The notes under the pieces were generated by a model, which ran no database searches, was not told the DNA's origin, and saw nothing but the letters and a program-made list of their open reading frames with translations. The position numbers and the translations under genes are program-made. Below are positions 33,655-45,730 of a stretch of DNA of 63,042 nucleotides, piece after piece. How positions within the stretch are numbered: position 1 is the stretch's first letter; every line of letters starts with the position of its first letter. This DNA comes from a virus, in the IMG/VR virus record IMGVR_UViG_3300043410_000495, positions 1-63,042 of that record. One strand, written 5' to 3'.

Positions 33655-34017
33655 ATGGCACATTTTGCTGAATTAGGCGAGAACAACGTAGTACTAAGAG
33701 TTATCGTTGTTGATAATAAAGATACTATGGACACACAAGGAAACGAAGTAGAAGAAATTGGTGCTACTTTTTGCAGAAATTTGTTAGGAGGAACTTGGAA
33801 AAAAACCAGTTACAACGCTAACATTCGTAAAAATTATGCTGGTATTGGATTTACATACGACAGTGATCGTGATGCATTCATACCTCCAAAACCATATCCA
33901 AGTTGGATACTAGATGAGGAAACTTGTCGTTGGAATCCTCCTGTCCCACACCCAACAGATGGTGGTATGTATAACTGGAATGAAGACACGCAGACTTGGG
34001 ATGCTTTACCTCAATAA
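33655..34017 (+). CDS. Conserved small fibre-locus protein 'MAHFAELGENN', copy 1
   Basis: A 120-residue protein paralogous to the 119-residue protein at 45371. Shared blocks are MAHFAxLGxxN, 'EVEEIGATFCRNLLGG', NxRKNYAxxGFTYDSxRDAF, IPPKPYPSWILDEETC and a closing YNWNEDTQTWD. I know this type as a recurrent uncharacterised protein near fibre genes of marine T4-like phages. Both copies directly follow a glycine-rich adhesin and precede an MxFPxxPxNGQT protein. It may be a fibre-associated cap or assembly factor; no enzymatic motif is visible. The SD AAGGAG is strong. Confidence 0.75.
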   Translation: MAHFAELGENNVVLRVIVVDNKDTMDTQGNEVEEIGATFCRNLLGGTWKKTSYNANIRKNYAGIGFTYDSDRDAFIPPKPYPSWILDEETCRWNPPVPHPTDGGMYNWNEDTQTWDALPQ

Positions 34018-34020
34018 ATA
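34013..34020 (+). promoter_or_regulatory. Late promoter AATAAATA
   Basis: Overlaps the preceding TAA stop; 27 bases before the ATG at 34040. It is the nearest upstream late promoter I see for the accessory cassette extending to 43630. Confidence 0.5.
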
Positions 34021-34039: not shown

Positions 34040-35248
34040 ATGGGATTTCCTAATACGCCCAGTAATGGTCAAACCGCAGTAGTAAATGGTATTACGTATA
34101 CCTACAACAGTGCAAGAACTGCATGGGTGCGTAGTGCTGCCACAACTTATAATCTTTATACCGCAAGTAATATAGCACCTACTACTCCTAGTCTAGGCGA
34201 CCAATGGTACTATATTGCGACAGATGTTTTATATGAATATGTAAGCGATGGAACAAATAGTGTATGGGTTGATGTTGGTACATTTGCTGGTCAGAATGGA
34301 AATATCACAAATATTCCAAGTTCTACTTTAAGTGGAAATATAGTTGTTGCGTTAAATGGAATTTATTCTATTGGTGCAGCCACTGGTTATCTATCAAACA
34401 TTTATACAAATAAAACTACCAGTAATACAATTACCACCTCTGGTGGAGTTTTTTGGTCAAATGGAACGTCTTTTTCTAGCCCGCCCGGTGGCAGTAATGG
34501 ACAGTTTCAATTTAACAATTCAAATGTTTTTGGTGGAGCAAATGTATTATTCTCATCTGCGAATGGTAATGTAATTATTACATCTGCAACAACATCTACA
34601 TCAACATCTACTGGTGCTTTGGTAGTTGGTGGTGGCGTTGGTGTTACTGGTAACATTTATACTGCTGGTGGAGTATTTTGGGCAAATGGAGCATCATTCT
34701 CTAGTCCACCAGGTGGCAGTAATGGACAAATTCAATTCAATAGTTCTAGTGCATTTGCTGGAGCAGCCAATGTAAAATATGATTCAACCACTGGTAATTT
34801 ATTAGTTTTATCAACTACAAATGGTACAGCAACTGGTGGTGCGATAACTACACTTGGTGGAGCAAGTTTTGTTGGTAATATTTTTGTTACAGGAAATATT
34901 TTAGCCACAAATCAAATTATTGCTGCGTATTCTGATGAAAGATTAAAAAATAAATTGGGCGCAATATTAAATCCAATTCAAAAAATAAAACAAATTGATA
35001 CGTTTTATTATACACCAAATGATTTAGCACTAAGTATTGGAATCAATGATACTAGAATACAAGTTGGTGTATCTGCACAAAGTGTTGAAAGCGTATTGCC
35101 CGAAGTAGTAACTTCAAGTCCAGTTAATAGTGAATATAAAACAGTTAGTTATGAAAGAATAGTTCCATTACTAATTGCTGCTATCAATGAACAACAACAA
35201 CAAATTGATCAATTACGGGAGATAATTAATGTCCTTCATAATAGGTAA
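34040..35248 (+). CDS. Tail fibre with C-terminal S74 intramolecular chaperone
   Basis: A 402-residue fibre. The head MGFPNTPSNGQTAVVNGITY is followed by a 'GDQWYYIATDVLYEYVSDG' module (about 52) and two copies of GGVFWSNG/ANGxSFSSPPGGSNGQ (about 135 and 210). From about residue 298 a peptidase S74-type domain starts at AAYSDERLKNKLG, continues with QVGVSAQSVESVLPEVV and KTVSYERIVPLLIAAI and ends in a coiled coil. Such domains trimerise the fibre and then cut themselves off before the conserved Ser-Asp; the SD pair is present here. The next gene starts inside its last 20 bases. Confidence 0.88.
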   Translation: MGFPNTPSNGQTAVVNGITYTYNSARTAWVRSAATTYNLYTASNIAPTTPSLGDQWYYIATDVLYEYVSDGTNSVWVDVGTFAGQNGNITNIPSSTLSGNIVVALNGIYSIGAATGYLSNIYTNKTTSNTITTSGGVFWSNGTSFSSPPGGSNGQFQFNNSNVFGGANVLFSSANGNVIITSATTSTSTSTGALVVGGGVGVTGNIYTAGGVFWANGASFSSPPGGSNGQIQFNSSSAFAGAANVKYDSTTGNLLVLSTTNGTATGGAITTLGGASFVGNIFVTGNILATNQIIAAYSDERLKNKLGAILNPIQKIKQIDTFYYTPNDLALSIGINDTRIQVGVSAQSVESVLPEVVTSSPVNSEYKTVSYERIVPLLIAAINEQQQQIDQLREIINVLHNR

Positions 35249-36416
35249 TACAGTAGTTGGTACTACTGGTATTGTCGCTCCTGTTTTTACAAATAATAAT
35301 AGACCAACCAATGCTACTACTGGTTATGTTATCTATAATACAGATGCACAACAATTACAAGGTTATTTTGGAAATATAGGTGGTCAAAGTGGTATATGGA
35401 GAACCATAGGGGGTAATATTGCTACAGGTTCTGCATATCTTTACAGAACAGTAATTACAACAGGCTACGTAATGGGAGGGTATCAAAATAGTAGCCCATG
35501 GAAGAATGTCAACCGTATGAATCATTCCACAGATGTTATGACAAATCTTGGTGATCTATTAACGAATTCTGGTGCATATACTAGTGGAACAAATAATAAC
35601 AGTAAAGGATTTATTTGGTCAACTGATAATAGTTTTCCTGGAAGTAGCACAACTACTTCTGCGTTTTCAATGATTACCGAAACTGGTTCTGGTTTAAACA
35701 CAAATTGGAATATGCGTGTTAATAGAAATAATATGGGTACTATTTTTAAAGAAACCTTGTATGCCTATATTGTGGGTGGTGGAAATGCAGACGTAGATGT
35801 ATTTAATTTGACAACAGAAACAATGTTGGCTGATTTTACTTACATTGGCAATTACATACAAATGGGTGGAGTAACTCCGTATAACACTCCTATCAGTGGA
35901 GATACAAGTAGCAGTGATAGTTCAAATGCCATTGGTACAATGAGCGACGAAACTGCAGGATACGGATACTGCGATAACGGTACATTTAGATTGACGTTTG
36001 CAACTTCTACAGTCAGTGGAATAGATCCAGCACGATCTGGATTGAGTGGTGATTATTATATAAGTGGTGCAAATGTTAATTTAGGCGCACACGGACAACA
36101 AAAAGGTATTAATTCCAAATTAAACAGAGGTTACGCAGGTAACGAAGGAAATTATAATGGAGGATATAACCTGCGTCGTTGGGTATTTCCTACACAAACA
36201 TACACAACTATTTCTAAACCTATTGGCAATTCTGGAGAAGAAAATTTTGATATGGGACAAGATCATCAATACATGATGGGTTGTTACGATGGATCACAAA
36301 ACAATCGTGGATGGAGATTTAGTTATACCACAGATACAGGATACGAGTTGGGTGCAGGTAGTGTAAGAACAGGTGTTGCTGGAGGAAGTTCTGGCGCATG
36401 TTGTTGGAAAGGTTGA
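35229..36416 (+). CDS. Fibre-tip protein with 'GYVMGGYQ' domain, copy 1
   Basis: A 395-residue protein overlapping the previous gene by 20 bases (SD GGGAG). Residues 25-75 carry the 'RPTNATTGYVIYNTD' module. From about 75 the sequence is strongly related to the next gene: TTGYVMGGYQ, SPWKNVN, DVMTNLGDLL, NEGNYNGGYNLRRW, NSGEENFDMGQ, NNRGW, YELGAGSVRTGV. The repeated 'Y..GG' and Trp spacing suggests a kelch-like beta-propeller, which is inference. It directly follows an S74 fibre, so it may be a distal receptor-binding protein. Copies differ mainly in the middle 150 residues. Confidence 0.75.
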   Translation: MSFIIGNTVVGTTGIVAPVFTNNNRPTNATTGYVIYNTDAQQLQGYFGNIGGQSGIWRTIGGNIATGSAYLYRTVITTGYVMGGYQNSSPWKNVNRMNHSTDVMTNLGDLLTNSGAYTSGTNNNSKGFIWSTDNSFPGSSTTTSAFSMITETGSGLNTNWNMRVNRNNMGTIFKETLYAYIVGGGNADVDVFNLTTETMLADFTYIGNYIQMGGVTPYNTPISGDTSSSDSSNAIGTMSDETAGYGYCDNGTFRLTFATSTVSGIDPARSGLSGDYYISGANVNLGAHGQQKGINSKLNRGYAGNEGNYNGGYNLRRWVFPTQTYTTISKPIGNSGEENFDMGQDHQYMMGCYDGSQNNRGWRFSYTTDTGYELGAGSVRTGVAGGSSGACCWKG

Positions 36417-36417
36417 G

Positions 36418-37488
36418 ATGGTTTTTAAATTAAATGCTAATATAGTTATTGATGCAAATGGTGTAGTAATTCCTAGTTTTACTACTGGTACTAGGCCAAG
36501 CAGTCCTGTTAATGGACAAATAATCTATAATACCAGTACCAATTTGATGGAAATTTATGACACTGGTTTGTGGAAAGATGCCACATCAAGTGCAAGTGGT
36601 GGGGCGTTTTTATATCGTCAAATAATTACTACTGGTTATGTTATGGGTGGATATCAAAGTAGTAGTCCATGGAAAAATGTAAATAAAATGGTTCATGCCA
36701 CAGATGTGATGACTAATTTAGGAGACTTATTAGCATATGCTGGAGCATACACTTCTGGATTCTGTAGCACAAGTCGTGGGTTTCTTTGGTCAGCCGATGG
36801 ATCATGGCCTGGTACTAGCGCACAAACAGTGGCATTTAACTTAGCCACAGAAACAACAGCAGGAACAAATACAAATTGGAACATGAGCGTTGGTCGTGAT
36901 GACTGTGGAACTGGATTTAAAGAACAAAGTTATGCATACATCACGGGTGGTGGTAGTAGTGTAATTGATGTGTTTACAGCAGCAACCGAAACTCAAACAG
37001 TTGGTGTTGGTACTGGAATTACAGGAGATTCACAACAATCTGGGGCTACTTCTTTTAGTAGCGAAACTGCGGCATATTATTGGGGTAATGAAAGTAAAAA
37101 ATTAACTTTTAGTTCGGGTACTACATTTTCAATTGCAACAACAACAGTTGGAGGAAGTGGCAGTCAACAGAAAGGTATAAGTAGTAAGTTAGGTAAAGGG
37201 TATTGTGGTAACGAAGGAACCTATAATGGTGGATATAATCTTCGCCGCTGGAATACTGCAACTGATACTCAAAATACTACTTGCTCAAAACCAGTAGGAA
37301 ATAGTGGTGAAGAAAATTTTGATATGGGTCAAGCGTGGCAATACATGTATGGATGTTACGATGGAGCACAAAATAACCGAGGTTGGAAATTCAATTATAA
37401 TACTGAAACTGGATACGAATTAGGCGCAGGTAGTGTGCGCACTGGAGTTCCCGGTGGAAGTTCAGGACATGCAGTTTGGAAAGGATAA
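36418..37488 (+). CDS. Fibre-tip protein with 'GYVMGGYQ' domain, copy 2
   Basis: A 356-residue tandem paralogue of the preceding gene. I chose the ATG at 36418 (MVFKLNANIVIDANG), one base after the upstream TGA; a longer in-frame start at 36373 would lie inside the previous gene. Residues 18-45 hold the 'RPSSPVNGQIIYNTS' module; the propeller-like domain begins near 58. Both ends are highly conserved with copy 1, while about residues 110-250 diverge. This fits duplication followed by diversification of a ligand-binding region. Confidence 0.75.
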   Translation: MVFKLNANIVIDANGVVIPSFTTGTRPSSPVNGQIIYNTSTNLMEIYDTGLWKDATSSASGGAFLYRQIITTGYVMGGYQSSSPWKNVNKMVHATDVMTNLGDLLAYAGAYTSGFCSTSRGFLWSADGSWPGTSAQTVAFNLATETTAGTNTNWNMSVGRDDCGTGFKEQSYAYITGGGSSVIDVFTAATETQTVGVGTGITGDSQQSGATSFSSETAAYYWGNESKKLTFSSGTTFSIATTTVGGSGSQQKGISSKLGKGYCGNEGTYNGGYNLRRWNTATDTQNTTCSKPVGNSGEENFDMGQAWQYMYGCYDGAQNNRGWKFNYNTETGYELGAGSVRTGVPGGSSGHAVWKG

Positions 37489-37490
37489 AA

Positions 37491-38282
37491 ATGCATTTAG
37501 ATAAGTTTTCAAAAGATGATATTATCACTGATGTTAGTGGTATGTCTGAAGATCAAAAAGATATTATTGCTGTTGCAATGAGCAAAGAGTGGACAACGCC
37601 TGAGTTTAAAGTTAAAAACTTTATTGGCAATGCACAAGTAACACCATTTGCTAAATTGCGTCAGTATATTATAGAAATGAATACTCGTGAACATGCAGTT
37701 CAGGGTATGGAATATGAAGTTAAAAAAATTGAATTAGAAATTGAATTAGAACAGGAACGTGCAAACGAAACCACTAGTCCAGCACAAAAGAAGATTCATG
37801 AACTTGAGATATTAAAACTCACAGCAGGTCTTAAACGTAGTCAATTGAGATTGCGTGATGCGTATAATGAAAGAGAAATGTACATTAAGATCATTGAAGA
37901 GTTTAATAATAGTCCAGAAGGACATTTACCAAACGGAACTAGATTAATTGATGTTTTTGAAGATCCAGAAATTTCGGAACAATTAGAAAAAGAATACTGG
38001 ACAATGCGACTTGCAAAACAAACAGCATTGGATATGATAGCATATGGACGTGCTGGTGTTGGTAATATGGAAGCAGTCACTATGCTTGAGCCAGAACAAC
38101 AAATGGAAGTTATGCAAATTGCATGTGAATATTTTGTTAGAAATGAAATGCGCACAAACTATTTGTTAAATTCTGTAAATGAAGCAATTCAGCAAGGTAA
38201 ATTGCCTCCATCAGAATTGGCAAAACAATTAATATTAAATCAGGATAAACAGGATGTACCTACTATTCAGAACAGTCAGTGA
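37491..38282 (+). CDS. Coiled-coil protein of fibre locus, unknown
   Basis: A 263-residue, charged, helical protein, MHLDKFSKDDIITDVSGMSE. Start taken at the ATG 37491 (2 bases after the previous stop) rather than an in-frame TTG 15 bases upstream. Residues 68-140 (EYEVKKIELEIELEQE, then LKRSQLRLRD) form a strong coiled coil. There is no signal peptide, membrane helix or catalytic motif. Its position right after receptor-type proteins and before a DUF4376-like gene suggests a chaperone or spacer for fibre assembly; that is inference only. Confidence 0.7.
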   Translation: MHLDKFSKDDIITDVSGMSEDQKDIIAVAMSKEWTTPEFKVKNFIGNAQVTPFAKLRQYIIEMNTREHAVQGMEYEVKKIELEIELEQERANETTSPAQKKIHELEILKLTAGLKRSQLRLRDAYNEREMYIKIIEEFNNSPEGHLPNGTRLIDVFEDPEISEQLEKEYWTMRLAKQTALDMIAYGRAGVGNMEAVTMLEPEQQMEVMQIACEYFVRNEMRTNYLLNSVNEAIQQGKLPPSELAKQLILNQDKQDVPTIQNSQ

Positions 38283-38982
38283 TCCCCAATTGGGGATTAT
38301 TAAACGCACAGGACAATGGCTAGATTTTGTCATTGGCTACTTAGATGATTCTGTCAAAGATGTTGTAAAAATAGATCATCTAAATGCCGTTGTGATTGAA
38401 GATGAAGCAGTTGCATTGGCATGGAAATTTGCTGGAAATTATTCTGGATATGTTTCTGTACGTGCAAATACATTAACTAACGATCAATTGAATATTATTA
38501 GTTCTGTTGAAGATCAATCATTGAAAGTAAAATATTACTTAACTGATGAAGACAAGTACAACGGAACTAAGTTTATGAAAATTGGGTTAAGAAAGTTTCT
38601 AGACGAAGTGTATGATCGTAGACTGCGACATGTTAATTTAGGAGTAACTGATTTAGAACAAAATACGTGGCCGCAACAACGTTCCGAAGCAGAAGCATAT
38701 AACCTAGATAATGCTGCTTCTACTCCTATGCTTGATGCATTGGCAGCAGCACGTAATATCACTAAAGCAGAAATGGTTCAAAAAGTATTATCTGCCATTC
38801 AAAATTATAATCAACAAATCAGTGACCTATTGGCTACAAAGCAGGGAATTGAATCCGAAATAAAAAATTGCCTATCCATGGCAGACTTAAATATCCTTAT
38901 GCATCAACGCTTTGGTTATAATATGCCAGCAGCGCAACAGCAGGATCTTGATTATCAAGGTGGTTCGGTGTATAATTTATAA
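38254..38982 (+). CDS. DUF4376-like tail-fibre-associated/assembly protein
   Basis: A 242-residue protein starting within the last 29 bases of the previous gene (purine-rich AGGATAAACAGG before the ATG). Residues 127-225 (NTWPQQRSEAEAYNLDN, TPMLDALAAARNITKAEMV, then a helical SAIQNYNQQISDLL) resemble the DUF4376 domain I know from phage fibre-assembly-like proteins. The N-terminal 120 residues are a separate alpha/beta part. Its stop codon lies in the left arm of a perfect hairpin whose right arm contains the next start codon. Confidence 0.68.
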   Translation: MYLLFRTVSDPQLGIIKRTGQWLDFVIGYLDDSVKDVVKIDHLNAVVIEDEAVALAWKFAGNYSGYVSVRANTLTNDQLNIISSVEDQSLKVKYYLTDEDKYNGTKFMKIGLRKFLDEVYDRRLRHVNLGVTDLEQNTWPQQRSEAEAYNLDNAASTPMLDALAAARNITKAEMVQKVLSAIQNYNQQISDLLATKQGIESEIKNCLSMADLNILMHQRFGYNMPAAQQQDLDYQGGSVYNL

Positions 38983-39000
38983 GAACCACTTATAAATTAT
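38972..39000 (+). promoter_or_regulatory. Perfect 12-bp-arm hairpin spanning stop and start codons
   Basis: Left arm ATAATTTATAAG (38972-38983), loop AACCA, right arm CTTATAAATTAT (38989-39000). The upstream stop TAA (38980-38982) lies in the left arm. The first two bases of the downstream ATG (38999-39001) are in the right arm. No SD is visible before that ATG, so ribosomes finishing the upstream gene may need to open the hairpin. The sequence is certain; the coupling role is inferred. Confidence 0.75.
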
Positions 39001-40615
39001 GTTTTCAATACCAATTAACCCGAAACTCAGGGAATCTGAGTTTAAACGATTCTATTCTTTTTTACAAGAAAATAAAGATGTGATTTATGATCTTTATTTT
39101 ACTAGTAGAATGCCTCCATTTGTCCAAGATGCAATGGGTGACGTATTTGATGTAAATGATATGGCACCGATTGAAACTGCATTGTATATTCAACAAAGTC
39201 TAGGCATTCCAGTTTCTGCTACCTTTAATAATGTTATGGTTAGACCTAGCCAAGAAAACTTGGATTTGTTTATTCATAATTTTAGAATGTTATACGACAT
39301 AGGTGTGCGATCAGCAACTATTCCACATTCGCATTGGTTAGCAACAAGACAAATACAAAAAGAATTCCCCGAATTACAAATCAAAAATACTATATTACGT
39401 AACGTAACACAAGCACAAGAAGTAGCACGTCTTGCTGAAGTTGGATTTCATTATATAAATCTTGATCGTGATTTGATGCGTAATAGAGACGAGTTGATTA
39501 AAATTCGTCGTGCCGCAGACAAGTATGGCGTAAAGATCAGTTTACTTGGTAATGAGGGATGTTTGGGTGGTTGTCCTATGATGGACGAACATTTTCAATT
39601 TAATAATACTAGAACAGGAAATAGTCCTCAATATTTTAATGATAGTATCAGTCGTGTCAGTTGTCCTAAATGGGAAATTGAAGATTCTGCAACATCATTG
39701 AAAACAGCAAACATTCCCCCATGGAGAGAAGATTGGGTAGACCTCCTACAATACGTAGATGTATTTAAAATGCATGGTAGAGAAAGTGTTAAACAATTGT
39801 TTAATACCATGGATATTGTTAAACGATATCGTAATAATGAACCTATACTTTTTAATGATTTTGATGAATACCTAAACGAAACAAATCTTGTAAACAAGCC
39901 TATTACTGTATGGCGAGAAAAGATTAAAAATTGTAAATTTGATTGTTGGGAATGTAATTATTGTGACCAAGTATACCAAGCAAAATCTAAAATAAAACAA
40001 CACCCACTAGTGTACGCTGTCACTAAAGAATTAGTTGATAGTGTTAATGTAACGTTACAATCATCTGTTCAAGGTCTTACCTCAAATAGAGTCAGACAAT
40101 TACTGTATTCGCTGGCAAAACACTGTGATAATTATCTAGAAATTGGTTCGGCAATGGGAGCCACTGCTACAGCAGTTGCCGAATCTAATATTCACATGCA
40201 CTGTGTTGATAGTTGGAAATTGAATGTTCAACCAGAATCTGGTGAATTTGAACTTCCAGACAACACAAAAGATATATTTGTTAAAAATATGAATGGATAT
40301 GATAATTTAATTATTCATGATTGTGATCTATTTTACACAGAACGAAAAAAAATAAAAGACATTGATTTGTTTTTTTATGATGGCTCACACGATGTTAACA
40401 TTACTGCCCGGGCCATAAGTCACTATTATGATTGTTTTGCAGACACTGCAATATTAGTATTTGATGATGCAAATTGGCAAGGGGTAGTTCAAGGTGCTGA
40501 TTTGGGCATTAGTATGTCTAAACTTAAAGTATTATATTCAAAGAAATTATTAAATTCTGCCGAAAATAAAGGTATGTGGTGGAATGGGTTATATATTGTG
40601 GTGGTTCAAAAATGA
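38999..40615 (+). CDS. Fusion: U32-like Fe-S TIM-barrel protein + SAM methyltransferase
   Basis: A 538-residue two-domain protein. Residues 20-326 look like a peptidase-U32-type barrel: GIPVSATFNN, 'DIGVRSATIPHSHWL', 'EVGFHYINLDRDLMRNRDEL', then NEGCLGGCP. Cysteines at 188, 192, 222 and a C312-x3-C316-x2-C319-x2-C322 cluster could hold a 4Fe-4S centre, as in UbiU/UbiV/TrhP-like U32 proteins. Residues 365-538 are a class I methyltransferase: NYLEIGSAMGATA (motif I), HCVDSW, DLFFYDGSH, ILVFDDANW. U32 relatives mediate hydroxylations or RNA modification rather than proteolysis. Substrate unknown. It heads a translationally coupled cassette and overlaps the oxygenase gene by ATGA. Family placement of the first domain is by eye. 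Confidence 0.65.
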   Translation: MFSIPINPKLRESEFKRFYSFLQENKDVIYDLYFTSRMPPFVQDAMGDVFDVNDMAPIETALYIQQSLGIPVSATFNNVMVRPSQENLDLFIHNFRMLYDIGVRSATIPHSHWLATRQIQKEFPELQIKNTILRNVTQAQEVARLAEVGFHYINLDRDLMRNRDELIKIRRAADKYGVKISLLGNEGCLGGCPMMDEHFQFNNTRTGNSPQYFNDSISRVSCPKWEIEDSATSLKTANIPPWREDWVDLLQYVDVFKMHGRESVKQLFNTMDIVKRYRNNEPILFNDFDEYLNETNLVNKPITVWREKIKNCKFDCWECNYCDQVYQAKSKIKQHPLVYAVTKELVDSVNVTLQSSVQGLTSNRVRQLLYSLAKHCDNYLEIGSAMGATATAVAESNIHMHCVDSWKLNVQPESGEFELPDNTKDIFVKNMNGYDNLIIHDCDLFYTERKKIKDIDLFFYDGSHDVNITARAISHYYDCFADTAILVFDDANWQGVVQGADLGISMSKLKVLYSKKLLNSAENKGMWWNGLYIVVVQK

Positions 40616-41223
40616 AACGGTTTCCTATAATACAAGCAGACGTATTTGCGACTAACTGTGGTACACCAGAACAACGAAAGCAACTCATTGATGAAGCATG
40701 GGAAGCATATAAACAAAATGATTCTACGCTAGGATTTAGTAATCGTGGATGCTGGCGTAGCCATTTCAAATACAAGAATATTGATTGGTTGATGGATGAA
40801 ATACGTAATTTAGTTAATGAAGCAGGTAATCATTATCAAATGCAAGACCCACTGTATAAAGAAAAATCAAGTTTTTTTGGCGCAGCCGAAGTAAACTATT
40901 GGACTAACATTAATCAAATTGGCAGTAAAAATGCATTACATAATCATCAGTTACATCACTACGTAGCAGTGTATTACCTACAAGGCACAGGTACTGGCGA
41001 TATCATGTTTAGCAATCCATCTAATCTATTAGAAGGATGCAACCCTTATGCTCCTTTTGTCAGCGCATCAACATTTAGCCCAGATGATGGCGATTTATAT
41101 GTATGGCCAGCATGGTTGCCACATGAAACGGAAATCAATAACTCTGGAAGACATAGAATTAATATAGCCTTCAATATTAGATTCCAAGCACCTCAAAATA
41201 TATACAATGAAAAATACTATTGA
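40612..41223 (+). CDS. 2OG-Fe(II) oxygenase-like protein
   Basis: A 203-residue protein. Start set at the ATG 40612, which forms an ATGA overlap with the preceding stop. The C-terminal half has the double-stranded beta-helix oxygenase pattern: NALHNHQLHHYVAVYYLQGT (iron ligand His-x-His/Asp region), then GDLYVWPAWLPHETEIN (distal His) and GRHRINIAFNIRF (2OG-binding Arg). Similar putative 2OG oxygenases are common in T4-like cyanophages. It would hydroxylate a protein, nucleic acid or small molecule using 2-oxoglutarate and O2. Here it is coupled to a U32-like/methyltransferase protein, suggesting they modify a common target. Confidence 0.75.
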   Translation: MKRFPIIQADVFATNCGTPEQRKQLIDEAWEAYKQNDSTLGFSNRGCWRSHFKYKNIDWLMDEIRNLVNEAGNHYQMQDPLYKEKSSFFGAAEVNYWTNINQIGSKNALHNHQLHHYVAVYYLQGTGTGDIMFSNPSNLLEGCNPYAPFVSASTFSPDDGDLYVWPAWLPHETEINNSGRHRINIAFNIRFQAPQNIYNEKYY

Positions 41224-41959
41224 ATTCTATTCTGATATTGCAGGTGTTGTTGATGCATATCCTATAGTAAAACCAACCGACGTGCTACCAAATTGGATAG
41301 CAACAGTTCGTGCTGATTATAAACAAGCAGACAAAACACAACCACATCTATACAGATGTCCTGGTATTTTTGACTTATTCAATTATGGGTTCATTGTTCC
41401 AGCATGGCATGATGTTACATTGAATACAGATGGTGAAAACTATGGTTGGCTGGTTCCAAATGATGACCTAAAATTATTAATGGGTTCAAATCAAGTAGCA
41501 CAAATACACAGTCATAAAACAGTGGCAAAATACTTACCTCGCCCACCGTATGCGCATCCTAGTGTATTAAAACTAAACACACCGTGGCATGTAGTAGCGC
41601 CAAAAGGTATTAAACTATTAATTACTGCTGTGCCATATCCTGATAGTTACGACTTCCAAGCGCTGACTGGAATTCTTGATCCTGCTATTAGCACAGAAGT
41701 AAACATTCAATTAAATTGGCACACACCAATTGGAACAAAAACAATACGTGCAGGTACTCCTCTTGCGCATATTATACCAATTAGCGAACGCAACTTAGAA
41801 CTGATTGTTAGAGACAAAAACAGTTGGGATGAGATGTGGTCACTAAAACGCCGATATTTTAATGCAATGAATTTTGTATTGAATAGAAGCAAAATCAAAT
41901 CCATGTATGAACGGCATTTCCATGGTGGTAAATGTCCATTTCATTTCTGGAAAAAATAG
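41207..41959 (+). CDS. Conserved phage/bacterial protein, possibly DUF6065-like
   Basis: A 250-residue protein starting 17 bases before the end of the oxygenase gene. The layout is 'KPTDVLPNWIATVRADY', then HLYRCPGIFDLFNYGFIVPA and DVTLNTDG (residues 46-78), then a beta-rich part PWHVVAPKGIKLLIT, and finally GTPLAHIIPI with a basic C-terminus ending HGGKCPFHFWKK. It resembles the DUF6065-type proteins found beside oxygenases in aquatic phages. A cupin-like fold is possible. No catalytic motif is certain. Co-translation with the oxygenase suggests a shared pathway. Confidence 0.6.
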   Translation: MKNTIEFYSDIAGVVDAYPIVKPTDVLPNWIATVRADYKQADKTQPHLYRCPGIFDLFNYGFIVPAWHDVTLNTDGENYGWLVPNDDLKLLMGSNQVAQIHSHKTVAKYLPRPPYAHPSVLKLNTPWHVVAPKGIKLLITAVPYPDSYDFQALTGILDPAISTEVNIQLNWHTPIGTKTIRAGTPLAHIIPISERNLELIVRDKNSWDEMWSLKRRYFNAMNFVLNRSKIKSMYERHFHGGKCPFHFWKK

Positions 41960-41967
41960 GAGAAACT

Positions 41968-43011
41968 ATGGAGTTCATAACTTCTGTCCTACTAAAGGAC
42001 ATCACATATCTATGGATGATTTTCTTCATTATGATCAGTGCTGGACTAGCAAAAGAGTATCAACTCTTCGCCCCAGCATTTGCCTATGTAAGAAACACAT
42101 TTCGTAGTAATAGATTTGTTGTCGCTCTCTTAAGTGCAATAGGTGGTGTGCTACCCATTGAAGGTCGTGTTACTGTATCAGCAGGCTTGTTAGATACAGT
42201 AGCACCTAAAGATGGAGCAGGGCGTCAAAAAATGGGTATTGTTGATTATCTAGCAACTCACCACTATTATATGTGGTCACCACTAGAGAAAACAGTTATT
42301 CTTCCTATTGCTGCTTTTGGTCTTACTTACTCTGCGTGGTTACAAACCATAGCACCATTATTAGTTGTTAGTTTGGCTTTTATTGGTTGGTATGTTTGGA
42401 CACAGGTAAAAGAAGATGAAGTAGTTATTACACCTGGTAATTTTAAATTGTCTGCAGTTATTCGTAATGTATTTCCAATGATTATCGCAATTGGTTTTTA
42501 CATTTATAATGAACGTTGGATGATTAGTTGCTTTGGATTTTTAACTCTCTACTATATGTTTATCACTCAACAATGGAATTTCAAGAAGTTATTTGGATAT
42601 GTTCGTTGGGATGTTTTAGCAATAGTGGCAGTAGTTATAATGGTAGGAAACTACTTTAAGAGTAACAATGCATTATTTGAAACTATTATACGTGGCACAG
42701 TGATTGATCCAACTACATTTGTTGGTATGTTGATCATATCTGTACTAGGGTTTGTAATTAGTTTTCTAATGGGTTCAAGTGGTAAGTTTGTGGCAATCGC
42801 TGTGCTTATGGCACAAGTGTTCGGAACTGAATATTTCTTATGGTTCTTTGCTGTGGATTTCACTGCTTATTTGTTAAGTCCAACTCACAAGTGTATTAGT
42901 GTGGGTAATAGATATTTTGGAACACCTTTGAATACCTATTATCGTGCATTAAGTGCGTGGGGTTTAATTATGCTGGTAACAGCAGGACTATTTACATTTA
43001 TAAGGATTTAA
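41968..43011 (+). CDS. Polytopic inner-membrane protein, DUF401/IT-superfamily permease-like
   Basis: A 347-residue protein with about eight to nine hydrophobic segments (for example near residues 8-28, 45-60, 95-140, 160-205, 210-225, 250-295 and 328-345). The start at 41968 is fixed by a good SD (AGGAG, 5 bases upstream), in preference to an in-frame ATG at 41932. The segment GGVLPIEGRVTVSAGLLDTV followed by IVDYLATHHYYMWSPLEKT resembles the DUF401 group of ion-transporter-superfamily membrane proteins (uncharacterised, related to organic-anion permeases). Such a protein is unusual in a phage. The outer-membrane barrel gene starts one base after its stop. Transport is inference. Confidence 0.6.
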   Translation: MEFITSVLLKDITYLWMIFFIMISAGLAKEYQLFAPAFAYVRNTFRSNRFVVALLSAIGGVLPIEGRVTVSAGLLDTVAPKDGAGRQKMGIVDYLATHHYYMWSPLEKTVILPIAAFGLTYSAWLQTIAPLLVVSLAFIGWYVWTQVKEDEVVITPGNFKLSAVIRNVFPMIIAIGFYIYNERWMISCFGFLTLYYMFITQQWNFKKLFGYVRWDVLAIVAVVIMVGNYFKSNNALFETIIRGTVIDPTTFVGMLIISVLGFVISFLMGSSGKFVAIAVLMAQVFGTEYFLWFFAVDFTAYLLSPTHKCISVGNRYFGTPLNTYYRALSAWGLIMLVTAGLFTFIRI

Positions 43012-43012
43012 A

Positions 43013-43630
43013 ATGAAAAAACTTTTTGTAGTACTTTTGATGTTGTCTAACTTTGCTTTTGCAGAATCTGGTCAACCTCGTGTTGCATTTGAATATGAAC
43101 ATGAAACTTCTAAGAATGGGGGGAACAATATTGCATTTAGCATGTATCCCGGAATTCAGTGGAAAGAAGGATGGCTAAATCGTGCTGAATTAATGCTTGA
43201 AGGGAATCAGGACAATATGTACGATAACGGAAAAACTGGTAATAATACTCAAACTAAAATGGGTGTTAGATTACGCACAGATTTTAAACTAGGAGCAGGA
43301 TTTAGTGGTTATGTGCGTGGACTAGTTGGACGTGCAATGAGTAATGAAGAAAATTATGATTATGTATACTTAGAACCAGCAATTAAGTATAGTTTTAATA
43401 ATACTTGGAGTTGGACGGTTAGTGATCGTATTATTCGTACAATGGATGGAACAGATGGCAAGGACGTAAATAAATTGCGCTTTGGTCCAAATTGGGAAAT
43501 TAATAAAAACAATGTACTAGAACTACGATATGCTCTAGTTTATTATGCAGATAGTCATAATATTCTAAACCCAAATAATGGGGCTAGAAAGGCTGATGCT
43601 TGGATTTTAGAATATGCATATAAGTTCTAA
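43013..43630 (+). CDS. Secreted outer-membrane beta-barrel (KdgM-like porin candidate)
   Basis: A 205-residue protein with a textbook signal peptide, MKKLFVVLLMLSNFAFA, and an AFA|ES cleavage site after residue 17. The mature part alternates polar and hydrophobic residues in about 10-12 strands with aromatic girdles (MYPGIQWKEGWLNRAELMLE, SWTVSDRII). It ends ILEYAYKF, with the C-terminal Phe signal recognised by the Bam machinery. Size and the last strands recall small monomeric KdgM-type oligosaccharide porins. It directly follows the permease gene and is closed by a terminator, so the two are expressed together. A role in uptake, receptor masking or envelope change cannot be decided from sequence. 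Confidence 0.7.
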   Translation: MKKLFVVLLMLSNFAFAESGQPRVAFEYEHETSKNGGNNIAFSMYPGIQWKEGWLNRAELMLEGNQDNMYDNGKTGNNTQTKMGVRLRTDFKLGAGFSGYVRGLVGRAMSNEENYDYVYLEPAIKYSFNNTWSWTVSDRIIRTMDGTDGKDVNKLRFGPNWEINKNNVLELRYALVYYADSHNILNPNNGARKADAWILEYAYKF

Positions 43631-43651: not shown

Positions 43652-43679
43652 TAGGGGGCTTCGGCTCCCTATTTTTTTG
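43652..43679 (+). terminator. Rho-independent terminator closing the cassette
   Basis: Stem TAGGGGGC-TTCG-GCTCCCTA (one wobble pair) followed by seven Ts. Confidence 0.88.
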
Positions 43680-43690
43680 TCTATTTTTTC

Positions 43691-43698
43691 TATAAATA
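43691..43698 (+). promoter_or_regulatory. Late promoter TATAAATA (perfect)
   Basis: Exact T4 late consensus directly after the terminator, 31 bases before the ATG at 43722. It starts the second fibre block. Confidence 0.75.
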
Positions 43699-45370: not shown

Positions 45371-45730
45371 ATGGCACACTTTGCAAAACTTGGGCTTGAC
45401 AACATAGTAATAGAAGTACTAGTTGTTAACAACATTGATACAATGACTCCGCAAGGAGAAGAAATAGAAGAAATTGGTATAGAGTTTTTAAGAAAGTTAA
45501 CTGGACACGAAACCTGGAAACAAACATCGTATAACGGAAATTTTCGTAAAAATTATGCAGCCGAAGGGTATACATACGATAGTACTCGGGATGCATTTAT
45601 TCCTCCAAAACCATATGCGTCTTGGATATTAGATGAGAATACATGTTGGTGGTACCCTCCGATACCCTACCCAACAGATGGTAATTCGTATAAATGGAAC
45701 GAGGATACCCAAAATTGGGAATCTGTATAA
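45371..45730 (+). CDS. Conserved small fibre-locus protein 'MAHFAKLGLDN', copy 2
   Basis: A 119-residue paralogue of the protein at 33655 with the same block order (EEIGIEFLRKL, FRKNYAAEGYTYDSTRDAF, IPPKPYASWILDENTCWW, YKWNEDTQNWE). It again follows a glycine-rich adhesin and precedes an MAFPxSPxNGQT protein. Divergence between copies is moderate, so the duplication is old or was acquired from a relative. No function is known to me. Confidence 0.75.
   Translation: MAHFAKLGLDNIVIEVLVVNNIDTMTPQGEEIEEIGIEFLRKLTGHETWKQTSYNGNFRKNYAAEGYTYDSTRDAFIPPKPYASWILDENTCWWYPPIPYPTDGNSYKWNEDTQNWESV

Follow-up and report, generated by a model that had tools for sequence, protein, structure and literature searches.

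The window, a 63-kb record of a T4-like virus (IMGVR_UViG_3300043410_000495) that encodes T4-type gp20 and gp23, carries five closely packed genes next to its tail-fibre genes, the last two of which encode an inner-membrane permease and an outer-membrane beta-barrel (Table 1). The virus is one of aquatic bacteria, and dozens of its relatives likewise have the carrier gene and an outer-membrane barrel gene side by side in a late operon. A first-pass annotation of the window had described the five genes as overlapping by 4 bp and 17 bp and then separated by gaps of 8 bp and 1 bp, with one terminator closing the block; the gene coordinates and spacings are exact, and the terminator is a hairpin followed by a T-run. 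The late promoter that it had placed at 34013 is credible, since the element matches the NATAAATA pattern seen before other genes of the window. Eleven NATAAATA sites lie on the plus strand, against three on the minus strand, and nine of the eleven sit 20-60 bp 5' of a gene start. Because the sites at 34013 and 43691 stand on either side of the fibre genes plus the five-gene block, with no further site in the interval, these genes likely share one late transcript, and since the next fibre gene has its own late promoter at 43691, the permease-barrel pair would end that transcript. The number of sigma-70 promoters in the block (49, with 52.6 expected by shuffling) is close to the shuffled expectation and is therefore uninformative.

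Table 1. Features of the five-gene block and its surroundings in the window, with related features of other viral loci (L numbers)
Feature	Position or loci	Strand	Basis or remark
Late-promoter-like element AATAAATA, presumed late transcript start	34013-34020	+	27 bp 5' of ATG at 34040
Tail fibre with C-terminal S74 chaperone domain	34040-35248	+	Pfam Peptidase_S74 9.5e-8; PHROG tail fibre matches
Two fibre-adjacent genes	37476-38982 (37476-38282 and 38254-38982)	+	PHROG 1409 and PHROG 1604, respectively
First enzyme, large N-terminal domain and C-terminal methyltransferase	38999-40615	+	PHROG 1458 4e-159; Methyltransf_24 2e-6
2-oxoglutarate (2OG)-Fe(II) oxygenase	40612-41223	+	2OG-FeII_Oxy_5 (PF13759), 50.8 bits, cut-off 27
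Third enzyme-module gene, conserved	41207-41959	+	PHROG 7084 2e-39
Inner-membrane permease, viral DUF401 branch, predicted IT-superfamily elevator fold	41968-43011	+	PF04165; PHROG 14035 4e-77
Secreted 10-strand outer-membrane beta-barrel (predicted)	43013-43630	+	1-bp gap after permease; signal peptide; C-terminal Phe
Intrinsic terminator, end of unit	43652-43671	+	TAGGGGGCTTCGGCTCCCTA + T7
Late promoter TATAAATA of next fibre gene (43722)	43691-43698	+	NATAAATA type
Gate: small 10-strand-like barrels	25 loci, including the window		
Gate: plugless barrels of 265-297 amino acids (aa)	10 loci (including L003, L004, L008, L024, L033, L037)		TonB-box-like motif
Gate: 584-aa TonB-receptor-like type	5 loci		
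Gate: 717-aa siderophore-receptor type	3 near-identical loci, L067-L069		
Gate: TorF-type porin	1 locus		
Gate: DUF2490-like barrel	1 locus		
Permuted transfer-messenger RNA (tmRNA)	L025:4241-4624, L020:2732-3106, L030:465-792, L079:1607-1962, L100:1860-2446, L057:7556-7959		
Secreted peptides	L025:6353-6583, L057:9831-10070, L079:3698-3922, L044:7758-7916, L055:7702-7899, L100:2612-2809		

The block consists of two modules that lie end to end: module A (38999-41959), which holds the fibre-adjacent enzymes, and module B (41968-43630), which holds the permease and the barrel. The first-pass annotation had regarded all five genes as one system, and gene order in relatives agrees with that view only for the membrane pair, which is kept together, but not for the five-gene unit as a whole. 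Cyanophage records with the first enzyme (PHROG 1458) number 123, versus nine with the permease, and among viruses from metagenomes the permease frequently lies at a distance from the enzymes or in a locus where none of them is seen; many loci contain the permease and a barrel with no enzyme in the locus sequence. The ancestry of the modules is discordant as well. The first-enzyme gene of the window is 69% identical to that of locus L077, but the permeases of the two share only 60% identity, and the window permease is 78% identical to that of L002, whose first-enzyme gene is 51% identical. On the strength of this separability and discordance we reject a single five-gene system. Given that the modules separate, the annotation's other suggestion that fibre-modifying enzymes merely neighbour an envelope pair was partly right, and its proposal of a coupled, late-expressed unit spanning both membranes agrees with the conservation of the pair and with the presence of NATAAATA 45-49 bp 5' of the permease in 12 relatives' loci outside the enzyme cluster.

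The permease passes the cut-off for DUF401 (PF04165; 41.9 bits versus 24), and the best Foldseek matches of its AlphaFold2 model (predicted local distance difference test score, pLDDT, 82) are the tripartite ATP-independent periplasmic (TRAP) transporter SiaQM (4e-5), VcINDY (4e-4) and ArsB (6e-4), all with a probability of 1.00 and with template modelling (TM) scores of 0.57-0.68 to members of the ion transporter (IT) superfamily, so the initial description of a DUF401/IT-like membrane protein holds. All three are elevator carriers, and their solutes are mostly anions. Across the viral set and in two cellular relatives, four motifs (GG-LPI-GR, HHYY-WSPLEK, GSS and SP-HKC) show little or no variation, and the ratio of nonsynonymous to synonymous divergence (dN/dS) of the permease is 0.06-0.12 in relatives; judging from sequence and model, the permease is a maintained and probably active carrier. 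It shares the Pfam cut-off, the fold and the motif set of the rare cellular DUF401 proteins and differs from the known family in three respects: the N-terminal ~50 positions of the DUF401 profile are absent, its score against the hypothetical equivalog TIGR00529 (57.7 bits) is far below the cut-off of 378.4, and its branch is essentially restricted to viruses, with two cellular loci among 84,980 species. The cellular relatives are too rare for their gene context to give a clue to the substrate, and neither the permease nor the 584-aa receptor-like gate has sequence relatives in the PDB. The present analysis gives DUF401, for which the open literature searched had one passing mention, a first context. 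In locus L086 (67-8820), the surroundings of a cellular DUF401 gene include, within 8 kb, genes that by eye resemble a U32 peptidase, a major facilitator superfamily (MFS) carrier and a JmjC-like cupin.

The partner of the permease in the window, originally called a beta-barrel with a signal peptide, fits that description: its AlphaFold2 model has 10 strands (pLDDT 88) and retrieves only beta-barrels with Foldseek, and its sequence is below the cut-off for Pfam barrel families. A direct search with this protein in viral contigs and phages gave no match, and its homologues were reached only via the neighbouring permease; the one in L065 is 46% identical and holds the same position. Across 81 viral loci, an outer-membrane gene directly adjoins the permease in 45 (39 of 66 once identical permeases are collapsed), and at least six outer-membrane families occupy this slot, whose occupant we refer to as the gate. 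When a fixed rule was applied, 39 of the 69 genes immediately downstream of the permease were barrel-like, versus 11 of 735 long open reading frames elsewhere in the loci, most of these 11 being cell-wall hydrolases or similar proteins as judged by eye. In L037 the outer-membrane gene is directly upstream of the permease, with a gap of 1 bp. The association is reciprocal, as scans in the opposite direction, with four outer-membrane families as queries against 2.9 million viral contigs, yielded 28 loci, and the permease was directly upstream in all 26 that were testable; such scans detect close relatives only, so the reciprocity applies to these families rather than to all phage barrels. Some loci also encode secreted Lys/Pro/Ala/Glu-rich peptides of 52-79 aa, several with NCVTKDKKGNCPP, that adjoin the permease or come just after the gate, and a scan found none elsewhere in the loci. 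It is possible that these peptides are a third, periplasmic part.

The gate is exchanged as a whole gene between otherwise closely related phages. Loci L002 and L008 are ~93% identical (flanks 92-94%) across 9.1 kb of upstream and 6 kb of downstream sequence, the synonymous divergence (dS) of their permeases is 0.009, and their gates are different proteins, a 584-aa receptor in one and a 288-aa barrel in the other. The adjoining upstream stretch is identical as far as the last base before the ATG, and similarity returns at the next gene's late promoter. A replacement of the same pattern distinguishes L022 from L024, the immediate flanks of which are 91-94% identical, and the gate is absent from L042. 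It is unlikely that these swaps are chimeric assemblies, since the same alternatives recur in contigs from different metagenomes. On the permease tree, gate type changes 22 times, against a minimum of 7, and in several pairs the dS of the gate does not agree with that of the permease. Both permease and gate are under purifying selection, with dN/dS values of 0.07-0.28 for the gate. In-place exchange of this kind in near-identical genomes provides strong evidence from nature of the phage's dependence on the handling of a solute, or of a receptor, at the outer membrane.

Features of several gates bear on the direction of transport. All 10 barrels of 265-297 aa have a TonB-box-like stretch shortly after the signal peptide (e.g., LPPVVVTD, LDEVVVTA and DTFTVTG), as compared with 25 of 995 in the background, and these barrels have no plug domain; they are possibly an unrecognised type of TonB-linked barrel. 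The gates of L067-L069 carry plug and 22-strand barrel profiles (PF07715 1e-12 and PF00593 2e-43) and match TIGR01783 at 2.4e-58, yet below the cut-off of that family. TonB-dependent receptors and TonB boxes serve uptake, so their presence in the gate slot makes uptake the natural reading, and by analogy we infer import. Most likely the solute is a nutrient in short supply that is either chelated or anionic. Iron is a weak candidate, to which the siderophore-type receptor lineage, the iron-dependent enzymes nearby and a Dps/ferritin gene after the pair (3' of the permease or gate in 14 loci, e.g., L002:10948-11385) all point. No riboswitch or other RNA element that might hint at the solute turned up in the window or in 20 loci, the only RNAs found being tmRNAs and tRNAs.

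Taking these observations together, we lean towards the view that module B is a late, phage-encoded import route across the envelope with an interchangeable outer gate, and that module A encodes fibre-adjacent modifying enzymes. The inner-membrane DUF401 protein, as an IT-superfamily carrier, and the gate in the outer membrane would form a two-membrane route for a solute, in which the pairing is old and the gate may be a small barrel, a plugless barrel tagged with a TonB box, a TonB-dependent receptor or a porin. The route would act late, when the host's own uptake fades. A more ambitious formulation, which we offer tentatively and would not yet back over its denial, is that T4-like phages that are lytic and infect aquatic hosts, largely betaproteobacteria, have their own late, energised two-membrane import, with a gate that is a precise cassette drawn from unrelated barrel families, including plugless barrels with a TonB box. 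Several observations weigh against an import route. None of the 25 small barrels, including that of the window, has a TonB box, and the window barrel has no plug; the window gate may therefore be a passive channel. Since 10-strand barrels can be closed, it is only a putative pore. Furthermore, 26 of the 66 distinct permeases have no outer-membrane neighbour, and the cyanophage relatives have none, so the gate is not obligatory. As for iron, the siderophore-type receptor is confined to one lineage, and the Dps/ferritin gene has its own late promoter and likewise occurs in one lineage only. In addition, a receptor-blocking or exclusion role would likewise lead to rapid swapping of a surface protein, and superinfection exclusion cassettes are often replaced in place between near-identical phages.

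Superinfection exclusion or receptor masking, the first of which the first-pass annotation had raised together with surface remodelling, is the strongest alternative to import, and we judge it unlikely, although far from negligible. A late outer-membrane protein could displace, mimic or block the host receptor, such that sibling phages, or progeny that meet debris, are spared wasted infections and gate swaps track receptor use. The porin Lc of lambdoid phage PA-2 and the receptor blocker Llp of T5 are, like the gates, phage-encoded outer-membrane proteins; they alter receptor availability and are not known to have an inner-membrane carrier as a partner. Late expression is consistent with exclusion, as is the well-known use of TonB receptors and porins as receptors by phages. 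The gate is near fibre genes in many genomes, yet many permease-gate pairs are away from fibre genes, and exclusion leaves unexplained both the reciprocal linkage of permease and gate and the adjacent carrier, which has intact motifs and is under strong purifying selection. In L002 and L008 the gate is wholly replaced while the neighbouring fibre genes are still homologous (83-96% identical), but the distal fibre region of this one pair is not alignable, and gate type may yet co-vary with it.

There are two further explanations. In one, the five genes would act together after all, with the enzymes modifying the solute or the envelope pair supplying the enzymes with, for example, 2-oxoglutarate or iron. 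Cyanophages S-H25 and metaG-MbCM1 have the order enzyme, oxygenase, DUF401 and Gly-rich fibre, with no barrel, and their permeases are 34% identical to that of the window, from which it follows that the enzyme-DUF401 neighbourhood is old; in both phages the oxygenase assignment of the middle gene was made by eye (HxD...H), with no match in Pfam. Of the 81 loci, 38 contain 2OG genes, the cellular DUF401 of L086 has its JmjC-like cupin on the 3' side, and 2OG enzymes require iron. Against this stand the many permease-barrel pairs that lack the enzymes in the locus sequence, the absence of DUF401 from most enzyme-bearing cyanophages, the discordant ancestry of the modules in the window and the permease's own late promoter in relatives, and we give the idea little credence. 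Even less probable, in our estimation, is that the pair exports a siderophore, toxic metabolite or signal. Elevator carriers can run either way, the exporter ArsB is among the fold matches of the permease and the small barrels are without a TonB box, but the TonB-dependent receptors and TonB-box barrels in the gate slot indicate uptake, and no periplasmic adaptor of an efflux system was seen.

If module B is indeed an import route, it resembles TonB-dependent uptake systems in placing an outer-membrane receptor beside an inner-membrane carrier, and in some relatives it shares with them TonB boxes and a TIGR01783-like receptor. The pair differs from these systems in being phage-encoded and late, in the swapping of its gate among unrelated families, in the lack of a TonB box in the window gate and in having no binding protein or ABC (ATP-binding cassette) transporter; no TonB or ExbBD was seen among the neighbouring genes. 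T4-like aquatic phages, namely pelagimyophages and an OM43 phage, encode an outer-membrane channel in the curli genes CsgG-CsgF, for which uptake is among the suggested roles (PMC7029224, PMC9004378), but these are different proteins that have no paired inner-membrane carrier and no reported gate swapping. A SusC-type TonB receptor in megaphage Mar_Mega_1 and LR745206 has been proposed to raise uptake (PMC9723777), and it is listed as a lone gene with no carrier partner or swapping described. No published paired or swappable phage carrier-gate system was found in the open literature, subscription literature not being covered. Phage auxiliary genes are usually viewed as single enzymes or transport parts, whereas in this case a carrier of the inner membrane stays together with an outer gate that is itself swapped. 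If the function is import, phages would still be investing in uptake in the late phase, and the carrier-gate pair allows a clean test of import versus superinfection exclusion.

Turning to module A, the methyltransferase domain of the first enzyme passes the Methyltransf_24 cut-off (29 bits versus 26.3), and an alignment of the N-terminal domain shows seven invariant cysteines (C188, C192, C222, C312, C316, C319 and C322), which suggest an Fe-S site. The label 'U32-like' that had been given to this gene did not survive: four N-terminal domains gave no match to Pfam U32 at E<=10, and searches of NCBIfam and PDB profiles likewise lent no support to a U32 peptidase. The second gene, by comparison, passes the PF13759 cut-off and is the 2OG-Fe(II) oxygenase it had been taken for. 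The third gene has a weak match to DUF6065 (16.7 bits, below the cut-off of 26.6). In 20 loci a tryptophan-halogenase-like flavoprotein gene, called by eye (e.g., L002:4277-5806), is present between the first enzyme and the oxygenase; for the L002 gene, NCBIfam gives weak flavoprotein matches. As in the window, the PHROG 1409 and PHROG 1604 genes stand 5' of the enzyme block in relatives.

Several viral loci have a permuted tmRNA gene a short distance 5' of the permease. These genes are of the betaproteobacterial type except in L100, where only the permuted model matched, and those of the betaproteobacterial type suggest that some of the viruses have betaproteobacterial hosts. Finally, the window has two paralogous pairs: a protein of ~120 aa (MAHFA...) encoded at 33655-34017 and again at 45371-45730, each copy 5' of a fibre gene, and two tandem fibre-like genes at 35229-36416 and 36412-37488.

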